Positions 26,501-42,889 of a stretch of DNA of 57,225 nucleotides are shown one piece after another. The position numbers were made by a program, and so were the translations under genes. The notes under the pieces were generated by a model. It was not told the DNA's origin, searched no databases, and was given only the letters and a program-made list of their open reading frames with translations. Location: the NCBI GenBank assembly GCA_012513515.1, contig JAAZCA010000021.1:1-57225 (forward strand), in the 5' to 3' direction. Source of the DNA: Myxococcales bacterium (GTDB lineage: Bacteria > UBA10199 > 2-02-FULL-44-16 > JAAZCA01). The first letter of the stretch is position 1, and each line of letters opens with the position of its first letter.

Positions 26501-27730
26501 CCAGCCAATGAGCCTGCGAAATCGGCATACCTTCACACTGGCAAAATCCGGAGGATATTCCTCTCACAGTTTTCAGATCACGGCCTGGCGTTTGCTGCCA
26601 CATTCAAGAAGCTCGGATTCGACCCGGTCCTTCTCGACCTGCCGAATGAGGAATCCCTTAAGCTTGGGTCCATGCACTCGACATCGGGAGAATGCCATCC
26701 GTACACGCTGATGCTCGGAGACTACATAAAGGCCGCTACTAGGAACCTCGACTTCTCGAGCTCTGCTTACTTCACACCTGACTCGGCGCTGTGCCGCGTG
26801 GGGCAATTCGGCATCCAGATTAGAAATATCGCCAAGGCAACCGGGCTACGTCTCCCGGTGATAACTAAAATTCAGGATATCCTTACCCTTTCCACAGCCG
26901 GAAAGTCATCTCACATGAAGGCGTTGACGACATACTGGGAGATGATGCGCGGCATGGATTTCTTCATGCAAAAATTTCTCGAAACGAGAGCGTACGAAAA
27001 ACATCCCGGCGACGCCGACGTCGCACACGAAAAAGGGAGAATGGCAATAATAGAAAGCATCTCGACTGGAAAACCTCTCGATGGGCTTGCCAAGGCAGTT
27101 GCGATGCTAAACGACGTTGGCACCAATAAAAAACAGCGCAAATTTAAAATAGGAATTACCGGAGACTATTACACCCGTGTCTGTGATTTCGCGAACAATC
27201 AAACGTTTAGGGAAATCGAAAAAATGGGCGGCGTCGTAATGCTCCCCTCCACGCTGTGCGAATTCGTGAAATATGATGTTCACCAAAAGCCTGTCTGGGC
27301 AATAGGCCACAGGGATCCTGCCGAACTCATCAAGCAGCTCGTCGCTAAAAAAGTGGTCTATGCAAAGGAAAATAGAGTCAGAAAGATATTCGGAGATGGC
27401 ATCGACTACAACATCCCGCTGGAATACGAAAGAGCGGTAAAATACATGCGTCCATACATGAGCGAAAAACTGCCGTCGGGGCTTACCGCATCGGTGGCAG
27501 GAATCCTCGAGCAGATCCATGCAGGCGCAGATGGGATTCTTAACCTTATAACTTTTCACTGCACCTATGGACTTGTAATATCTTCGGTATTATCATCTAT
27601 CGACAGGGATTATCCGAAGATCCCAAAACTAACGCTCATCTTCGAGGGGTTAAAGCCTGCTCACAACAGGGTGAGGCTCGAAGCATTCATGGAGCGCGTA
27701 AAATCTTCGGCAGCCGGAGGGAAGCGATGA
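23591..27730 (+). CDS. Giant acyl-CoA dehydratase activase (two BcrAD/BadFG ATPase domains + DUF2229 + HgdB-like region)
   Basis: A 1379-residue protein. Two ASKHA ATPase domains of the 2-hydroxyglutaryl-CoA dehydratase-activator type lie in tandem: the first starts LGLDLGSISLKTALL, the second (about 315-575) VFLGVDIGSVSVKLAAL. Each has EIGGQD and a CAAGTGAFL plus RC.VF pair, so both cluster-ligand cysteines per domain are kept. A DUF2229 domain follows (about 655-860, IGIPRALITFDQIPLW, ETCLPVKALCAH), then a dehydratase-subunit-like C-terminal part with further cysteines (GECHPYTLML). Activases deliver electrons at very low potential, driven by ATP, to radical dehydratases. The partner of this large form is not known. 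It is coupled to a small membrane protein by an ATGA overlap. Confidence 0.9.
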   Translation: MNKKRLNLGLDLGSISLKTALLDENNHILFEKWMRVAGNPLGSLKILLDDIKKSFGELEFSSIGYTGSGRGLISEILKEAASINEISAHAAAVKEFHPEVKSVIEIGGQDSKLILFGDEDEISEFRMNELCAAGTGAFLDQQAARLGMEIEEFALKGLEATSPVAIAGRCAVFAKTDMTHHQQEGRPLPDIIAGLNEALARSYISNLVRGRYLHRPISFQGGVAKNAGLVAAFKKMLSLKDGELIIPKNHLTMGAIGAAIAARGSPPRNMVRISCIEKSLEKISEIKITQKHALPKLKSASQRIIDSSLKNIVSSGVFLGVDIGSVSVKLAALSEDGVIYQDYEFSDGRPLDVLRKLFDKLDKASPNLKFSGTGITGSGRAFLGKLIGADTVVNEITAQVAACKSVMPELDTIIEIGGQDAKFIRLEGGSVRRFEMNRVCAAGTGAFLQEQSARLGIDLSREFAAKAALSDAPSNLGARCTVFMESDLVSHQQSGSSKNDLLAGLAYSVITNYLEKVAPVSEIGDKILFTGGVAQNDAVASALENRLGKYVMRSRLGKVTGAIGAAIAAHSDKLKKKYSSSTFIGVSAAMEIEHFYCEDCENGCLISRAVKNNGAIFGGKCGKWDGELKSGRTSKSVISKRASIFGYSPSVNPGGSSVRGCIGIPRALITFDQIPLWRSFFESLGFKVLLSPPTNKAMLEDGMKHITTETCLPVKALCAHTWWLEKNKEVDAIFVPSLVFSERDRFGKDNSHCPYVQSAAQFASPVTSKKFLNPVVNWKWHPQDYKREMVRISKELGVSERAANRAWEQACEEMKKARSKLRNIGDNILARLKSGELKRAFLLLGKDYNLHDKSLNSGAAGLLGAMGEAIITQDMITDDSANYPDGYINMVWSHGKEIISAAHIASEIPNLFPVMITSFGCGPDSFTINQAREAARGRPFLLLEVDEHSSSVGMATRIEAFIDSLSKDYQPANEPAKSAYLHTGKIRRIFLSQFSDHGLAFAATFKKLGFDPVLLDLPNEESLKLGSMHSTSGECHPYTLMLGDYIKAATRNLDFSSSAYFTPDSALCRVGQFGIQIRNIAKATGLRLPVITKIQDILTLSTAGKSSHMKALTTYWEMMRGMDFFMQKFLETRAYEKHPGDADVAHEKGRMAIIESISTGKPLDGLAKAVAMLNDVGTNKKQRKFKIGITGDYYTRVCDFANNQTFREIEKMGGVVMLPSTLCEFVKYDVHQKPVWAIGHRDPAELIKQLVAKKVVYAKENRVRKIFGDGIDYNIPLEYERAVKYMRPYMSEKLPSGLTASVAGILEQIHAGADGILNLITFHCTYGLVISSVLSSIDRDYPKIPKLTLIFEGLKPAHNRVRLEAFMERVKSSAAGGKR

Positions 27731-28134
27731 TCGCAAAATTTGTTATATTCGGAATGCTGGGAATCTGCACTAACCTGTTTATAACCGCATTGTTTTCGAC
27801 GATCGCCAAGAGAAAGCTCGAACTAACTGGCGAGGCGTCTGTTGTCATGTTTCCTGTCTACGGACTCGTAGCATTCATCTATCCGGTCGTCGCAATACAT
27901 CTCAGCCACCTGGACTGGTATCTTCGCGGTGCAGCCTACATGCTCATCTTTTACGTATTCCAATATGTCATCGGCCTTGGCTTGACCAAGCTCAGGCTCT
28001 GCCCCTGGAACTATTCCGGCAGCTTCTCCCTGCATGGGCTGATAAGGTTGGCGGATGCGCCGATATGGTTCGGATGTGGGCTGGCTCTGGAGTGGATCTA
28101 TCCGATCGCCAAAGCTGCCGCGAATGTAATTTGA
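27727..28134 (+). CDS. Small membrane protein, ABC_trans_CmpB-like (PF06541 type)
   Basis: 135 residues with four predicted membrane helices. The segment LCPWNYSGSFSLHGLIRL followed by APIWFGCGLALEWIY is the pattern of the putative ABC-transporter type IV (CmpB) family, whose function is not established. Its start overlaps the activase stop (ATGA), which indicates coupled translation and perhaps a functional link such as anchoring or an enzyme acting on membrane substrates. Confidence 0.75.
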   Translation: MIAKFVIFGMLGICTNLFITALFSTIAKRKLELTGEASVVMFPVYGLVAFIYPVVAIHLSHLDWYLRGAAYMLIFYVFQYVIGLGLTKLRLCPWNYSGSFSLHGLIRLADAPIWFGCGLALEWIYPIAKAAANVI

Positions 28135-28491: not shown

Positions 28492-30426
28492 TCATCTGAC
28501 TGAGGTGCCGTTGGTAGACTTCAGATCCCCTAGGACAAGCCTGCCGTCTCTATTTTCGAAAAAAAGATGCTCTCTTGAAATGGTCGTTACGCCGCCAAAT
28601 ATTTCTCTTCCGACAATTCTTTTTTCACCGGGCCTTAAAATAAAATAATTAGATATCTGTTCATCGATACCTTGGTCATCCGAGGCGAAGAAAGTAAAAA
28701 CTCCAAGAGATACGACTAACCCCCCAGACCACGGGGCGTATTGAACTTTAGCAAAGCCGTCGCCCAAATTCACATATAGCGGAGTATTTGAATTTATATT
28801 GTACAGATATTCCACTCCAGGCTGCAAACGCCCCCTATAAAAATCCTTGTTATCAAATTCCGCTGAAAGCCCGTTTGTCGATTTCAGGTCTGTGATGACT
28901 ACCGAACCTTCACCCCTGTTTTCCAATTTCAGGTGTCTCGCTGAAACGGTTCTGTCATCGCCAAAGTCCGTTCGACCGAGCACGATAGAGGACCCGCTAG
29001 GAACCTGCACGATACGTGATCCATTTTTACCTACGATTCGAGCCATGATTGAATCGCCATCTAAGAACAGATCGACGTAACAGCTTCTGTTCAATACCAG
29101 CCTGAACGGACCCGTATTCTCTATTTCGGCACCATATCGAACGCCGGGGATTAAATTTGAACCAAAAAACAGCGCTTCCTTAGGGGCTCCACCATTGCCT
29201 AGCGTATTTCTAATCTCGGATTCAATCCCAGTTTCATATTCGAACATATCGAAATATTCTAGAAAATCACCAACTGATATATTGAAAACTTTTCCCGTGG
29301 AGTCGTGAGGATTCGATATGGTCAAAGTCTTATTTTTTGAGTTGTAATCGACGACTGTGTACATGTGACTTTCTACGAGCCATGAAGGAGCATTAGAAGG
29401 TTTGTAGATTTTAGTAGCCACATTCAGAATCGAAAAATTTATATTTGCCTTAAACTCTTCCAGCAAATCCATCGCTTCTTTTTTTGTGTACAAATACACT
29501 CTCTTCGAACGGGCCATCTTCCCCATTATAGCAAGCGACACCTCGGACTGATAGCCGCCCTCTACGGCGAGAAAGGTGTCCTGCCTCGTTTCGAACCAGC
29601 TACGATTTTCCTTTCTTCTCTTTGCATATGCGTACTCTATTATCTGAAATCCGAGATCTCCTCTTGAAAGCGACTTTAATTGAGTGTTTATTCCCTTCTT
29701 ATGAATTAGCCTACTCTTTAAATCGGATCGCTTCACTTTTATCGGCGTTTCATCATCGGCAAATCTTACCGTCCATCCATTTCCTTCTGGTTTGATCATC
29801 CTGGCAAATAAATGTCTGGCGTAAGGCTTACGCGCTAGAGCATAAAGATAGGCCAATAGATAACAGTTCCCCACGGAGCCCTGCTTGAATTGTGCCTTTT
29901 TTAGATTTGGAAATATTTCATCTATAAGCGCCTCCTCTTCAGGAGATAGCTTGCCTAAGCCAATGTCCTGCAAAGCATTAACGCTACCCGCTTCATGAAC
30001 GCCACGCGCAGGAAATGTAAAAAAGGCTGCGATCGCCTTGAGGAAACCGTTGAAGGAAGCGGGCATAGATTTGATCGCATCCGAGCCATCGCCTTCGGAG
30101 ATCGCTTCCGGGTTGGACCGTTTTGGAGCTGCGGCAGATGGCGGCGATTCAGACTCAACAAGTCCATATCTAGCGGCCTCTGCTATAAGGAAGTCGCGCC
30201 TAGCCATCATCGATGCGTGGCCGGAAGGGGCTTGCGTTAGAGGCTGCTGCGCCGCGGGCGTAGCCGCTGAATATCCGGACTGCGCATATGCAAGGTTGCT
30301 CCGCATAAAAGCGGCCGCTGGCGTGAGTGCAGGGGCAAAAGCCGGCTGGCAACCAATCGGGGGAAAGCCGAAAGGCTGAACCGTCACGGGCACGGGCGCT
30401 GGCAGGACTGGTTTTGGAGGTGCCAT
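28492..30426 (-). CDS. Calpain-like cysteine protease with two C-terminal FHA domains
   Basis: 644 residues. Residues 1-160 are Pro/Ala/Gln-rich and disordered, without a signal peptide. Residues about 161-400 match the calpain (C2) protease core: QGSVGNCYLLAYLYAL places the nucleophile at Cys188, ESHMYTVVDY places the His at 354, and LTISNPHDSTG gives the Asn at 372 in the position of the calpain NPWG motif. Two FHA domains follow. The first has LGR (about 483-485), SARH (496-499) and STNG (516-519). The second has VGRE (605-608), SREH (617-620) and STNG (637-640) and ends the protein. FHA domains bind phosphothreonine, so the protease may be recruited to Ser/Thr-kinase substrates. It stands alone, divergent from the radical SAM gene. 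Confidence 0.8.
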   Translation of the reverse strand: MAPPKPVLPAPVPVTVQPFGFPPIGCQPAFAPALTPAAAFMRSNLAYAQSGYSAATPAAQQPLTQAPSGHASMMARRDFLIAEAARYGLVESESPPSAAAPKRSNPEAISEGDGSDAIKSMPASFNGFLKAIAAFFTFPARGVHEAGSVNALQDIGLGKLSPEEEALIDEIFPNLKKAQFKQGSVGNCYLLAYLYALARKPYARHLFARMIKPEGNGWTVRFADDETPIKVKRSDLKSRLIHKKGINTQLKSLSRGDLGFQIIEYAYAKRRKENRSWFETRQDTFLAVEGGYQSEVSLAIMGKMARSKRVYLYTKKEAMDLLEEFKANINFSILNVATKIYKPSNAPSWLVESHMYTVVDYNSKNKTLTISNPHDSTGKVFNISVGDFLEYFDMFEYETGIESEIRNTLGNGGAPKEALFFGSNLIPGVRYGAEIENTGPFRLVLNRSCYVDLFLDGDSIMARIVGKNGSRIVQVPSGSSIVLGRTDFGDDRTVSARHLKLENRGEGSVVITDLKSTNGLSAEFDNKDFYRGRLQPGVEYLYNINSNTPLYVNLGDGFAKVQYAPWSGGLVVSLGVFTFFASDDQGIDEQISNYFILRPGEKRIVGREIFGGVTTISREHLFFENRDGRLVLGDLKSTNGTSVR

Positions 30427-39153: not shown

Positions 39154-39645
39154 ATGTCGAACAACTCTTCCCAGAGCGTATCGGAGATACTCTCTCGTCA
39201 TCCCAACGCGTCTAGGGACAAGCTGATCCCTCTGCTTCAAGAGGTGCAGGACAAGCTCGGATATCTCTCCGAAGATGCGGTAGTAGAAATAGGCAGGCAT
39301 ATGAGCATTCCGGCGAGCAAGATCTACGGTGTAGCGACTTTCTACAATCAATTCCGATTTCAGCCGAAGGGGAAATATCACATAATGCTCTGCCGCGGCA
39401 CCGCATGCCACGTCAAGGGATCTTCAAAGTTGCTAGACGCAGTTGTAAAAACTCTAGGGATATCCCCTGGCAAAACCACCCGCGATCGAATGTTCAGCCT
39501 CGAAGTCGTGGCCTGCATGGGCGCTTGCGGTCTTGCACCGGTCGTCAACATCAACGGTGACTTCTACGCAAAGGCCACTCCTAACAAAATCGAAAAGATC
39601 CTAGCCGATTGCAGAGAAATGGAGAAAACAAATGTCACAGCATAA
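39154..39645 (+). CDS. hydC: HydC, thioredoxin-like [2Fe-2S] subunit of electron-bifurcating [FeFe]-hydrogenase
   Basis: 163 residues of the NuoE family. The four cluster cysteines are Cys80 and Cys85 (LCRGTACHVKG) and Cys121 and Cys125 (ACMGACGLAP). The helical N domain (KLIPLLQEVQDKLGYLSEDA) is complete. A NuoE-like protein could belong to complex I, but immediate linkage to HydB and the [FeFe] catalytic subunit makes it HydC. A strong ribosome site (ATGGAGGC) precedes the ATG. It overlaps hydB by 14 bases. Confidence 0.93.
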   Translation: MSNNSSQSVSEILSRHPNASRDKLIPLLQEVQDKLGYLSEDAVVEIGRHMSIPASKIYGVATFYNQFRFQPKGKYHIMLCRGTACHVKGSSKLLDAVVKTLGISPGKTTRDRMFSLEVVACMGACGLAPVVNINGDFYAKATPNKIEKILADCREMEKTNVTA

Positions 39646-42600
39646 CAACACCAGCAATAGCATCTGCGAGTCCTGGGCAAATTCGCCTGCTCCCACAGCG
39701 TCACTCCTTAAGGCAATCAAGTCGGGTCCGCTGGCAGGGAAAACGCCTGAAGAGGCAAAATCGAAGATCGCCTCCTTAAGGCGCGAAGACGTTTCGAAAG
39801 CCACCATCTTCGTCGGAACTGGAACATGCGGTCTTGGGGCAGGGGCAGGCAAAAGCCTGGAAGCCATAAAAAAATATCTCTCCGACAAAAAGATCGATGC
39901 GGAGATCGTGGAAGTTGGATGCATAGGGCTCTGCTCCGAAGAACCGATAGTCGATGTTCAGCTTCCGGGCAAAAGGCGCTTGAGCTTCAAAACCGTGACC
40001 GAAGAGAAGGTCGTAGGCGTCCTAGATTCCGTGTTCGTAGGAAAAGTTTCCGCTGACATGACGCTCGGACAGTTTAAAAATGACAAGCTCGCTGAGTGGC
40101 CTGAAGTTCCGCACATGCACCAGCATCCCTTCATGGCTCCCCAGCACAGGGTCGTGCTCGTAAACAGCGGCATCATAGATCCATCCAACATAGATGAATA
40201 CATCGCGCGCGGTGGATATGCCTCGCTCGAACAGGTGCTCACAAAAAACACTCCGGAAGATGTCTGCAAAAGAATTTTGGAGAGCGGTCTGAGGGGGCGC
40301 GGCGGCGGCGGCTTTCCGACGGGCAAGAAATGGACCTTCGCCAGACAGGCAACGGGAGACCAGAAGTATCTCGTCTGCAACGCCGACGAAGGTGACCCGG
40401 GAGCGTTCATGGATCGCGCAGTCGGCGAAAGCGATCCTCACCGCCTCATAGAAGGAATGACAATCGCCGCCTACGCGATAGGGGCATCGAAGGCCTACAT
40501 ATACATCCGTGCAGAATATCCACTGGCGATCGATCACCTCGTCGAAGCGATAGAAACAGCCAAGAAATACGGCCTGCTCGGAGAAAATATCCTCGGCACT
40601 GGGTTCAACCTGGAAATCATGATAAAGAAGGGTGCTGGAGCATTCGTATGCGGAGAGGAAACGGCTCTCATCCACAGCGTCGAAGGAAAACGCGGGATGC
40701 CTAGGCCAAGGCCCCCATATCCGGCGGTAGAAGGCCTCTTTCGCAAGCCCACCATCATCAATAACGTCGAAACTCTGGCTAACGTACCGGGGATTCTCTC
40801 GATGGGAGAAAAGAATTACGCAAACATCGGAACCAGCGGAAGCAAGGGAACGAAAGTGTTTGCTCTCTCAGGAATGGTGGAAAGAACCGGGCTTGTTGAA
40901 ATACCGATGGGCACCCCGCTTAGCGAAATAGTATTCTCGATCGGCGGCGGAGTACCAAGAGGCAAAAAATGCAAGGCTGTTCAGATCGGAGGACCGTCGG
41001 GAGGATGTATACCGGAGGCACACCTCGATCTCAAGACTGACTACGAAGACCTTAAAAATTTTGGCGCCATCATAGGTTCCGGCGGACTCGTCGTCCTGGA
41101 TGAAAACACCTGTATGGTCGATCTGGCAAAATATTTCATGGAATTCATCCAGAGCGAAAGCTGCGGTAAATGTATCCCGTGCCGCGAAGGCACCAAGAGG
41201 ATGCTCGAAATACTCGAATCGATAACCAGATCGCGCAAAAATGAAAAGGGAGACGCCCCGCTTCTGAGGATGCAGGGAATAATGTCGCTGCAAAAATTGG
41301 CGCAGATAATCAAAGATACTTCGCTATGCGGCCTCGGCCAGACGGCTCCAAATCCGGTGCTCAGCACCCTCAAGTGGTTCAGGAACGAATATGAAGCACA
41401 TGTCTTCGAGCGCAGATGCCCGTCCGGATCCTGCAAGGAGTTGGTCGGAGCACCATGCGCTACCGCCTGCCCCGTGGATACGGAGGCGTGGAAGTATGTG
41501 GCCCTCATCGCAAACGGGAACTACGACGAAGCCTACAGAACGATACGCAAGGCCAATCCATTCCCGTCGGCGTGCGCGAGGGTATGCCATCATCCATGCG
41601 AAAGCATCTGCAGATGCGGAACAACAGGCGGCGACCCGATAGCGATAAGAAGCCTAAAGAGATTCGTCACCGATAAGGTGGACCCGAGCGTGTACCGTCA
41701 GGAAATCAAAGCAGCCGGACCGGATGCGAAGAAAATCGCCGTAATCGGAGCCGGTCCTTCAGGGCTCACCGCAGCTAACGCCCTCTCGCTGTTCGGTTAC
41801 AAAGTCTCCATTTTCGAAAAAGAAAAGAAACCCGGCGGAATGATGGTCTGCGCAATCCCGGAATACAGGCTCCCGAGAAAGAACCTTTCGCAGGAGATAG
41901 AGGCGCTCATCAACAGCAACATCGACATCAATCTAGGCGTGGAATTCGGAAAAGATATGACCGCAGATTCTCTCTTGAAGAAAGGCTACAGCGCGATCTA
42001 CATCGCAACCGGATGCCACAAGAGTAAGAAAATGGGAATACCTGGAGAGGAAACCAAAGGCGTCCTGCCTGGAATAGAATTCCTCAAGGCCTACAATCTC
42101 GACCAGCAAGAACTGGCCAAAGGTAAGGTCGGCATCATCGGCGGTGGAAACTCCGCTGTGGACGCTGCGAGGGTAGCAATCAGGCAGAAGAACGTAACCG
42201 ATGTCACGATATTCTACCGCAGAACCAGAAACGAGATGCCGGCCTACCCGGAAGAAATAGAAGCCGCGCTCGAGGAGGGAATCAAGATAGAAACCCTAGT
42301 CGCGCCGACCAAAGTCGTGGCCGACGGCGGAAAGCTGAAAGCGGTGGAATTCATAACCAACAAACTCGGCGACCGTGATTCCAGCGGAAGGCAGCGTCCG
42401 GTTGAAATAAAGGGGTCGGAACACGAAGTTTCTCTCGATACGCTGATCGTTGCCATCAGCGAGGATCCCGATCCCGTCGCGGTAAGCGGGCTGAAAACGA
42501 CGAAGTGGGGCACCCTCTCCATAAATCCGGAATCAAAGATAACGGACAAGGCAGGGGTGTTCGGAGGCGGAGACGTTGTCCGCGGTCCCAACACAATCAT

Positions 42601-42889
42601 AGACGCGATAGCCGACGGCAAGCGCGCAGCCATAATGATCGACCGATTTGTCACCGGACAACAGCTCAAAATAATAGACAAGATCAAGCTCCCCACCGTC
42701 TATATAGAACCAGTTGCTGTGGATGAGAGCGGCGACTCGATCCCGACCACCAGAGCAGTTCAGCCGGCAATATCCGTCTCCCTCAGGAAAAAGAACTTCT
42801 CGGAAGTTGAGCTGTCACTATCGGAGGAGATGGCTAGGGGGGAGGCCTGCAGGTGCCTGAGATGCGATCTCGATTTCACAAGTCAGTAA
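39632..42889 (+). CDS. hydB: HydB-like flavoprotein fused to an NfnB/GltD-like FAD-NAD(P)H module
   Basis: 1085 residues. An N-terminal [2Fe-2S] thioredoxin-like domain (about 55-125) leads to the NuoF core: LRGRGGGGFPTGKKW (NADH and FMN site), CNADEGDPGAFMDR, GAGAFVCGEETALI, and the cluster motif ESCGKCIPCREG. At about residue 600 (CPSGSC), where typical HydB proteins carry a 2x[4Fe-4S] ferredoxin, this one continues with the GltD/NfnB N-terminal cluster domain (APCATACPVDTEAW, CARVCHHPCESIC). A two-dinucleotide oxidoreductase follows, with FAD site VIGAGPSGLTAA (about 704) and NAD(P) site IIGGGNSAVDAARVA (about 836). FYRRTRNEMPA, as in NADPH-using relatives, suggests NADP(H). The fusion would give HydABC an additional pyridine-nucleotide site. 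Confidence 0.9.
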   Translation: MSQHNNTSNSICESWANSPAPTASLLKAIKSGPLAGKTPEEAKSKIASLRREDVSKATIFVGTGTCGLGAGAGKSLEAIKKYLSDKKIDAEIVEVGCIGLCSEEPIVDVQLPGKRRLSFKTVTEEKVVGVLDSVFVGKVSADMTLGQFKNDKLAEWPEVPHMHQHPFMAPQHRVVLVNSGIIDPSNIDEYIARGGYASLEQVLTKNTPEDVCKRILESGLRGRGGGGFPTGKKWTFARQATGDQKYLVCNADEGDPGAFMDRAVGESDPHRLIEGMTIAAYAIGASKAYIYIRAEYPLAIDHLVEAIETAKKYGLLGENILGTGFNLEIMIKKGAGAFVCGEETALIHSVEGKRGMPRPRPPYPAVEGLFRKPTIINNVETLANVPGILSMGEKNYANIGTSGSKGTKVFALSGMVERTGLVEIPMGTPLSEIVFSIGGGVPRGKKCKAVQIGGPSGGCIPEAHLDLKTDYEDLKNFGAIIGSGGLVVLDENTCMVDLAKYFMEFIQSESCGKCIPCREGTKRMLEILESITRSRKNEKGDAPLLRMQGIMSLQKLAQIIKDTSLCGLGQTAPNPVLSTLKWFRNEYEAHVFERRCPSGSCKELVGAPCATACPVDTEAWKYVALIANGNYDEAYRTIRKANPFPSACARVCHHPCESICRCGTTGGDPIAIRSLKRFVTDKVDPSVYRQEIKAAGPDAKKIAVIGAGPSGLTAANALSLFGYKVSIFEKEKKPGGMMVCAIPEYRLPRKNLSQEIEALINSNIDINLGVEFGKDMTADSLLKKGYSAIYIATGCHKSKKMGIPGEETKGVLPGIEFLKAYNLDQQELAKGKVGIIGGGNSAVDAARVAIRQKNVTDVTIFYRRTRNEMPAYPEEIEAALEEGIKIETLVAPTKVVADGGKLKAVEFITNKLGDRDSSGRQRPVEIKGSEHEVSLDTLIVAISEDPDPVAVSGLKTTKWGTLSINPESKITDKAGVFGGGDVVRGPNTIIDAIADGKRAAIMIDRFVTGQQLKIIDKIKLPTVYIEPVAVDESGDSIPTTRAVQPAISVSLRKKNFSEVELSLSEEMARGEACRCLRCDLDFTSQ

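Follow-up and report, generated by a model that had tools for sequence, protein, structure and literature searches.

Bacterial calpains (peptidase family C2), among them Tpr of Porphyromonas gingivalis and the cyanobacterial PPC-calpains, share a papain-like Gln/Cys/His/Asn order (PMC4631099). In the 2015 survey by Rawlings, which covered 267 calpain homologues, FHA was not among the partner domains listed; the same review states the pressure that maintains bacterial calpains as unknown (PMC4631099). The coupling of a peptidase to a phosphopeptide-binding FHA domain has been described in the PrsW-family membrane peptidases, whose FHA fusions have been proposed as signalling peptidases (PMC3482391). 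The single-FHA regulators OdhI and FhaB/FipA have the FHA core in common with the protein described here and contain no peptidase.

The window is a stretch of 57,225 nucleotides from a Myxococcales bacterium (GCA_012513515.1, contig JAAZCA010000021.1). Its ORF 28492-30426, on the minus strand, is a single unbroken frame encoding 644 amino acids, and the gene is present as a single copy in a 1.79-Mb genome that is 99% complete. A first-pass annotation had recognized in this ORF a calpain-like protease followed by FHA domains, and both parts are matched by Pfam. Like other bacterial calpains, the protein has the QG..G.C, LV..HAY.V and dF...F motifs, matches the Peptidase_C2 profile and has no EF-hand, whereas it differs from them in an NPHD motif in place of NPW(G), a shorter stretch after the Asn, a separate clade and the C-terminal tandem FHA. 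The likeness to the PrsW fusions lies in the union of peptidase and FHA, but PrsW is an unrelated integral-membrane peptidase, while the window protein is predicted to be a soluble enzyme of papain-like fold. Calpain-FHA coupling extends the range of bacterial calpains; peptidase-FHA coupling as such has its precedent in PrsW. The earlier statement that no bacterial system joining a C2-type protease to FHA had been described held in the open-licence literature, including PMC4631099, where no report of a calpain-FHA protein was found; the layout may occur in database entries that are uncharacterised.

Catalytic domain and N-terminal region

Residues 162-400 (29227..29943, minus strand) were assigned by Pfam, profile and tree to a calpain-like Peptidase_C2 catalytic domain of an NPHD subfamily. 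In the protein search, the match covers residues 174-365 with E=2.8e-6 and 27.0 bits, above the curated cut-off of 23.8; the six-frame genome scan gave 18.9 bits only, covering part of the profile. Residues 182, 188, 354 and 372 are Gln, Cys, His and Asn, respectively. By alignment, Gln182 (29881..29883, minus strand), six residues before the Cys, is the putative oxyanion-hole glutamine. Cys188 (29863..29865, minus strand) is the predicted nucleophile and His354 (29365..29367, minus strand) the predicted catalytic His, both from the profile and the homologue alignment. Asn372 (29311..29313, minus strand) belongs to the NPHD motif and aligns with Asp in one homologue.

A search of the PDB with the window sequence alone was uninformative. 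With a profile of three family members, the nine best matches were all calpains, led by calpain-5 (E=8e-4) and calpain-3 (E=3e-3) and followed by calpains 9, 8 and 1. In this family profile, the QG..G.C motif around the Cys and the LV..HAY.VT motif around the His stand in register with the PDB calpains; the dF...F motif after the Asn also aligns with them, with a negligible score by itself. The proposal that Cys188, His354 and Asn372 occur in the right order and in calpain-like surroundings is thus sustained by the alignments with both the relatives and the PDB calpains. Because of the Pfam match, the calpain matches of the family profile and the motifs in register, the domain is classed, on sequence grounds, as a calpain-superfamily member that is both divergent and compact. 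The classical bacterial calpains have NPW or a close variant at the catalytic Asn; here the motif is NPHD, and across the clade NPHD or NSHD/DPHD. The stretch after the Asn is also shorter than in the classical enzymes. Five homologues, at 22-30% identity, all keep Gln, Cys and His and have N or D at the Asn position. Since the catalytic residues are conserved across this divergence, the protein is likely to be an active protease. Modeling of residues 155-644 with AlphaFold2 gave a poor model (pLDDT 38.1) from a two-row alignment with one relative, from which the closer orthologue was left out.

The absence of a calcium-binding domain, already remarked upon, agrees with the Pfam search, which found no EF-hand, C2 or calpain III domain in the protein. 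Residue 187 is Asn, as against the Asp that precedes the Cys in core calcium site 1 of classical calpains.

The region ahead of the catalytic domain (residues 1-155; 29962..30426, minus strand), delimited by composition and G+C, is rich in Ala and Pro (32 A and 21 P in the first ~155 residues), carries little charge and is probably disordered. The disordered look ascribed to the N-terminal ~160 residues was retained, while an autoprocessed pro-region finds no support beyond composition. No transmembrane or signal peptide-like segment is predicted in the protein. The G+C content is 59% over residues 1-150 against 42-45% for the rest of the gene, and the latter value compares with 0.48-0.54 in ten other genes of the window. 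Third-position G+C is 0.44, against 0.50-0.64 in the same comparison. The low G+C of the gene hints at acquisition.

The tandem FHA repeat

The FHA profile (PF00498) matches the whole protein above cut-off in two stretches (47.9 bits, E=1.9e-12), as the first-pass annotation had foreseen. The C-terminal 230 residues alone score 49.6 bits and the last 125 score 25.9 bits. Repeat unit 1 comprises residues 425-533 (28828..29154, minus strand; GR485, SARH, STNG), delimited by Pfam and repeat alignment, and unit 2 residues 534-644 (28495..28827, minus strand; GR607, SREH, STNG). Sequence and alignment show the phosphopeptide residues GR, S..H and STNG intact in both. The units are internal repeats, with 37% identity in direct alignment and an alignment score of 97 against 27 +/- 5 for shuffles; the repeat is also recovered by hhalign (E=2e-10, both orthologues included). 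The FHA part gave weak NCBIfam matches to OdhI and FhaB/FipA, far below the family cut-offs.

The two domains had been described as complete. The key residues agree with that description, but of the 67 profile positions the Pfam stretches span only 7-44 and 17-47, and the last unit ends directly after its STNG loop. Each repeat begins ~50 residues before the FHA core (F....L.PGV.Y...I....P) and ends directly after the STNG loop, and the C terminus follows the last loop in both orthologues, as STNGTSVR in the window protein and SSNGTMVFYNQ in its relative G018. Truncation of the second FHA by a frameshift was considered and rejected, the relative stopping at the equivalent point. Judged by the sequence, the second FHA would be devoid of its C-terminal strands in the usual place (strands 7-11 after the STNG loop). 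Since this unit ends after STNG and the repeat starts ~50 residues early, the missing strands may come from the segment that precedes each core, either by circular permutation or by strand exchange between the units. Circular permutation is put forward as a hypothesis. Units rearranged accordingly gained ~1-2 bits over shuffled controls in the Pfam scan. An AlphaFold2 model of one unit, with the other unit as its only homologue, is all-beta with a pLDDT of 70, and a Foldseek search of this model against the PDB returned no significant match in sequence order.

Phosphothreonine reading appears likely for the window protein and for the second FHA of G018, which keeps GR, S..H and NG. The first FHA of G018 has SRSG in place of STNG. 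In a further relative (G039), the single FHA is degenerate, with GK for GR and no S..H, and phosphate reading by this domain is therefore doubtful. As the FHA residues decay in these relatives, phosphate reading does not seem to be strictly conserved.

Relatives and genomic context

The closest relative was found in a genome of the same phylum and another family (G018). The last ~520 residues of this 1620-aa protein (L028:8517-13379, plus strand) align throughout with the window protein (E=9e-35); the 538 aligned columns, 27% identical, cover the protease and both FHAs, and the best conserved part takes in GR, S..H and the STNG/SSNG loop. Because this distant genome has the same protease-FHA-FHA order, the fusion is real and no assembly accident. 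Together with the Pfam profiles and the catalytic residues of the five homologues, its recurrence substantiates the coupling of a C2-type protease to FHA. The genome G039 encodes a 2368-aa protein (L029:4676-11782, plus strand) with the same catalytic domain in mid-protein and one degenerate FHA at the extreme C terminus. Outside protease and FHA, neither long protein has any Pfam match above cut-off. A second NPHD calpain-like protein of G039 (L042:2-1813, plus strand, contig C101) carries no FHA, has Asp for the catalytic Asn and shows beta-rich repeats and a hydrophobic segment ahead of the protease. Hydrophobic segments precede the catalytic domain in G018 and in both G039 proteins (G039a, G039b). 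Finally, a 411-aa protein from another phylum (G168, L050) resembles the window protein in catalytic clade and NPHD motif, and differs in the absence of FHA and in a beta-rich region, SH3-like by eye, before the protease.

A tree of the catalytic domains (13 bacterial domains, with long branches throughout) places the window protein, G018, G039a, G039b and G168 in a clade apart from the classical bacterial calpains (support 100/99). The branch order inside this NPHD clade is not resolved, so that one and more FHA gains are indistinguishable. The distribution is sporadic: the calpain-like protein occurs in 3 of 46 genomes of the phylum and is absent from three genomes of the same family. Searched alone, the tandem FHA tail was found in two of the 46 (the window genome and G018), only behind the NPHD protease. 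A contig search with the window protein alone found no relatives, one with the family alignment matched the G039 record only, and no relatives were found in viral contigs. Peptidase_C2 itself is rare, any match occurring in 11 of the 385 genomes of a broad sample. In the calpain frames scanned in this sample, the further domains recognised were PPC, WXG100 or bacterial Ig, or there were none, with one exception. In a genome of another phylum (G221; L057:1243-3066, plus strand), a calpain (Peptidase_C2, 75 bits in Pfam) is followed by two cyclic-nucleotide-binding domains (cNMP_binding, 131 bits). This protein likewise has a catalytic domain followed by a C-terminal tandem sensory pair, but it belongs to the classical clade and would sense cyclic nucleotides rather than phosphothreonine.

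The calpain-FHA gene stands alone among metabolic genes. On one flank lie a BcrAD/DUF2229 activase and a small unmatched ORF, and on the other a divergent radical-SAM gene. The window also encodes a 135-aa hydrophobic protein with no Pfam match (27727-28134, plus strand), which overlaps the end of the BcrAD/DUF2229 gene, and a 1085-aa fusion (39632-42889, plus strand) of a NuoF-like flavoprotein/Fe-S unit with a pyridine nucleotide oxidoreductase resembling the glutamate synthase small subunit. The neighbours differ between genomes in every case: acetyl-CoA synthetase-like, ribonuclease HII-like (by eye) and efflux genes in G018, efflux and flagellin genes in G039. A survey of homologues for linked Ser/Thr kinases or phosphatases had been suggested, and it came out negative, no kinase, phosphatase or substrate gene lying beside the protease in the three loci (window, G018, G039). 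None of the proteins from the window, G018 and G039 was matched by a PADLOC profile for anti-phage defence.

Five Ser/Thr kinase genes are present in the genome of the window. Two of them code for PEGA-kinases and adjoin genes for FHA output proteins, namely an FHA-GGDEF protein and an FHA-sigma54 activator (L030:6533-9548 on contig C29 and L031:6866-11103 on contig C17). On account of these adjoining genes, FHA-kinase signalling probably operates in the organism; gene order does not tie it to the calpain.

Possible functions and significance

The best reading of the protein, to which a probability of roughly 0.55 is given, is an intracellular signalling protease directed by phosphothreonine. 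It builds on the computed presence of both domain types, the conserved catalytic residues, the recurrence of the fusion and the kinases of the same genome. Cys188, His354 and Asn372 would form a papain-fold cysteine peptidase with Gln182 serving the oxyanion hole and with no need for EF-hand or C2 domains. In the cytoplasm, where we infer the protein to be located, kinase output would create a phosphothreonine mark on a partner or substrate, and the C-terminal FHA pair would bind it. This contact could bring substrates phosphorylated by the Ser/Thr kinases of the cell to the protease, or it could instead relieve an inhibited state. In either case, phosphorylation would decide what or when the protease cuts.

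A different role for the tail, unlikely but the most serious of the alternatives, would be structural or docking: the FHA pair would no longer read phosphate, and the protease would be constitutive or otherwise regulated, in a housekeeping or surface function. The degenerate G039 domain, the SRSG of G018, the non-canonical FHA ends and the missing kinase linkage in three loci are consistent with such a role, whereas the retention of all key residues in both window FHAs, and of GR, S..H and the loop within the part best conserved with G018, argues for phosphate reading.

The protein might also be a secreted or surface effector, or a toxin-like protease akin to the processing or effector domains of large exported proteins. 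Among bacterial calpains, some secreted or membrane-associated forms are known (PMC4631099). PPC or WXG100 is found in others. The G018 and G039 relatives are giants (1620 and 2368 aa) in which, as in G039b, hydrophobic segments come before the protease. FHA domains, however, normally act in the cytoplasm, and the window gene specifies no export or membrane segment and adjoins no immunity-like or secretion gene, which makes an exported protease quite improbable. Loss of activity, with the calpain-like fold kept as a binding scaffold, would accord with the low overall identity, the NPHD motif and the shortened stretch after the Asn; it is very improbable, given that Gln, Cys, His and Asn/Asp in all five homologues form the pattern of an active enzyme. 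The joining of unrelated ORFs by assembly or annotation error, which the G+C step after the N-terminal 150 codons might evoke, can be dismissed, being already refuted for the protease-FHA fusion (beyond the first ~155 codons) by an independent genome from another family, in which the order is the same, and the frame is unbroken.

Under the preferred reading of a phosphothreonine-directed protease, a broader picture can be sketched tentatively, at rather less than even odds: in bacteria of this phylum, proteases of the NPHD clade with non-canonical, possibly permuted tandem FHA would be phosphothreonine-gated, acting as direct switches from kinase to proteolysis, and belong to a wider set of sensor-equipped calpains. 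The calpain of G221, with its cyclic-nucleotide-binding pair, suggests such a wider theme of sensor coupling in bacteria. The recurring fusion to phosphothreonine readers offers a concrete, testable input for bacterial calpains. If true, the proposed function would link Ser/Thr kinase signalling to regulated proteolysis in bacteria within one polypeptide, and it would parallel the eukaryotic calpains, which are likewise distinguished by sensor domains on a common protease core.
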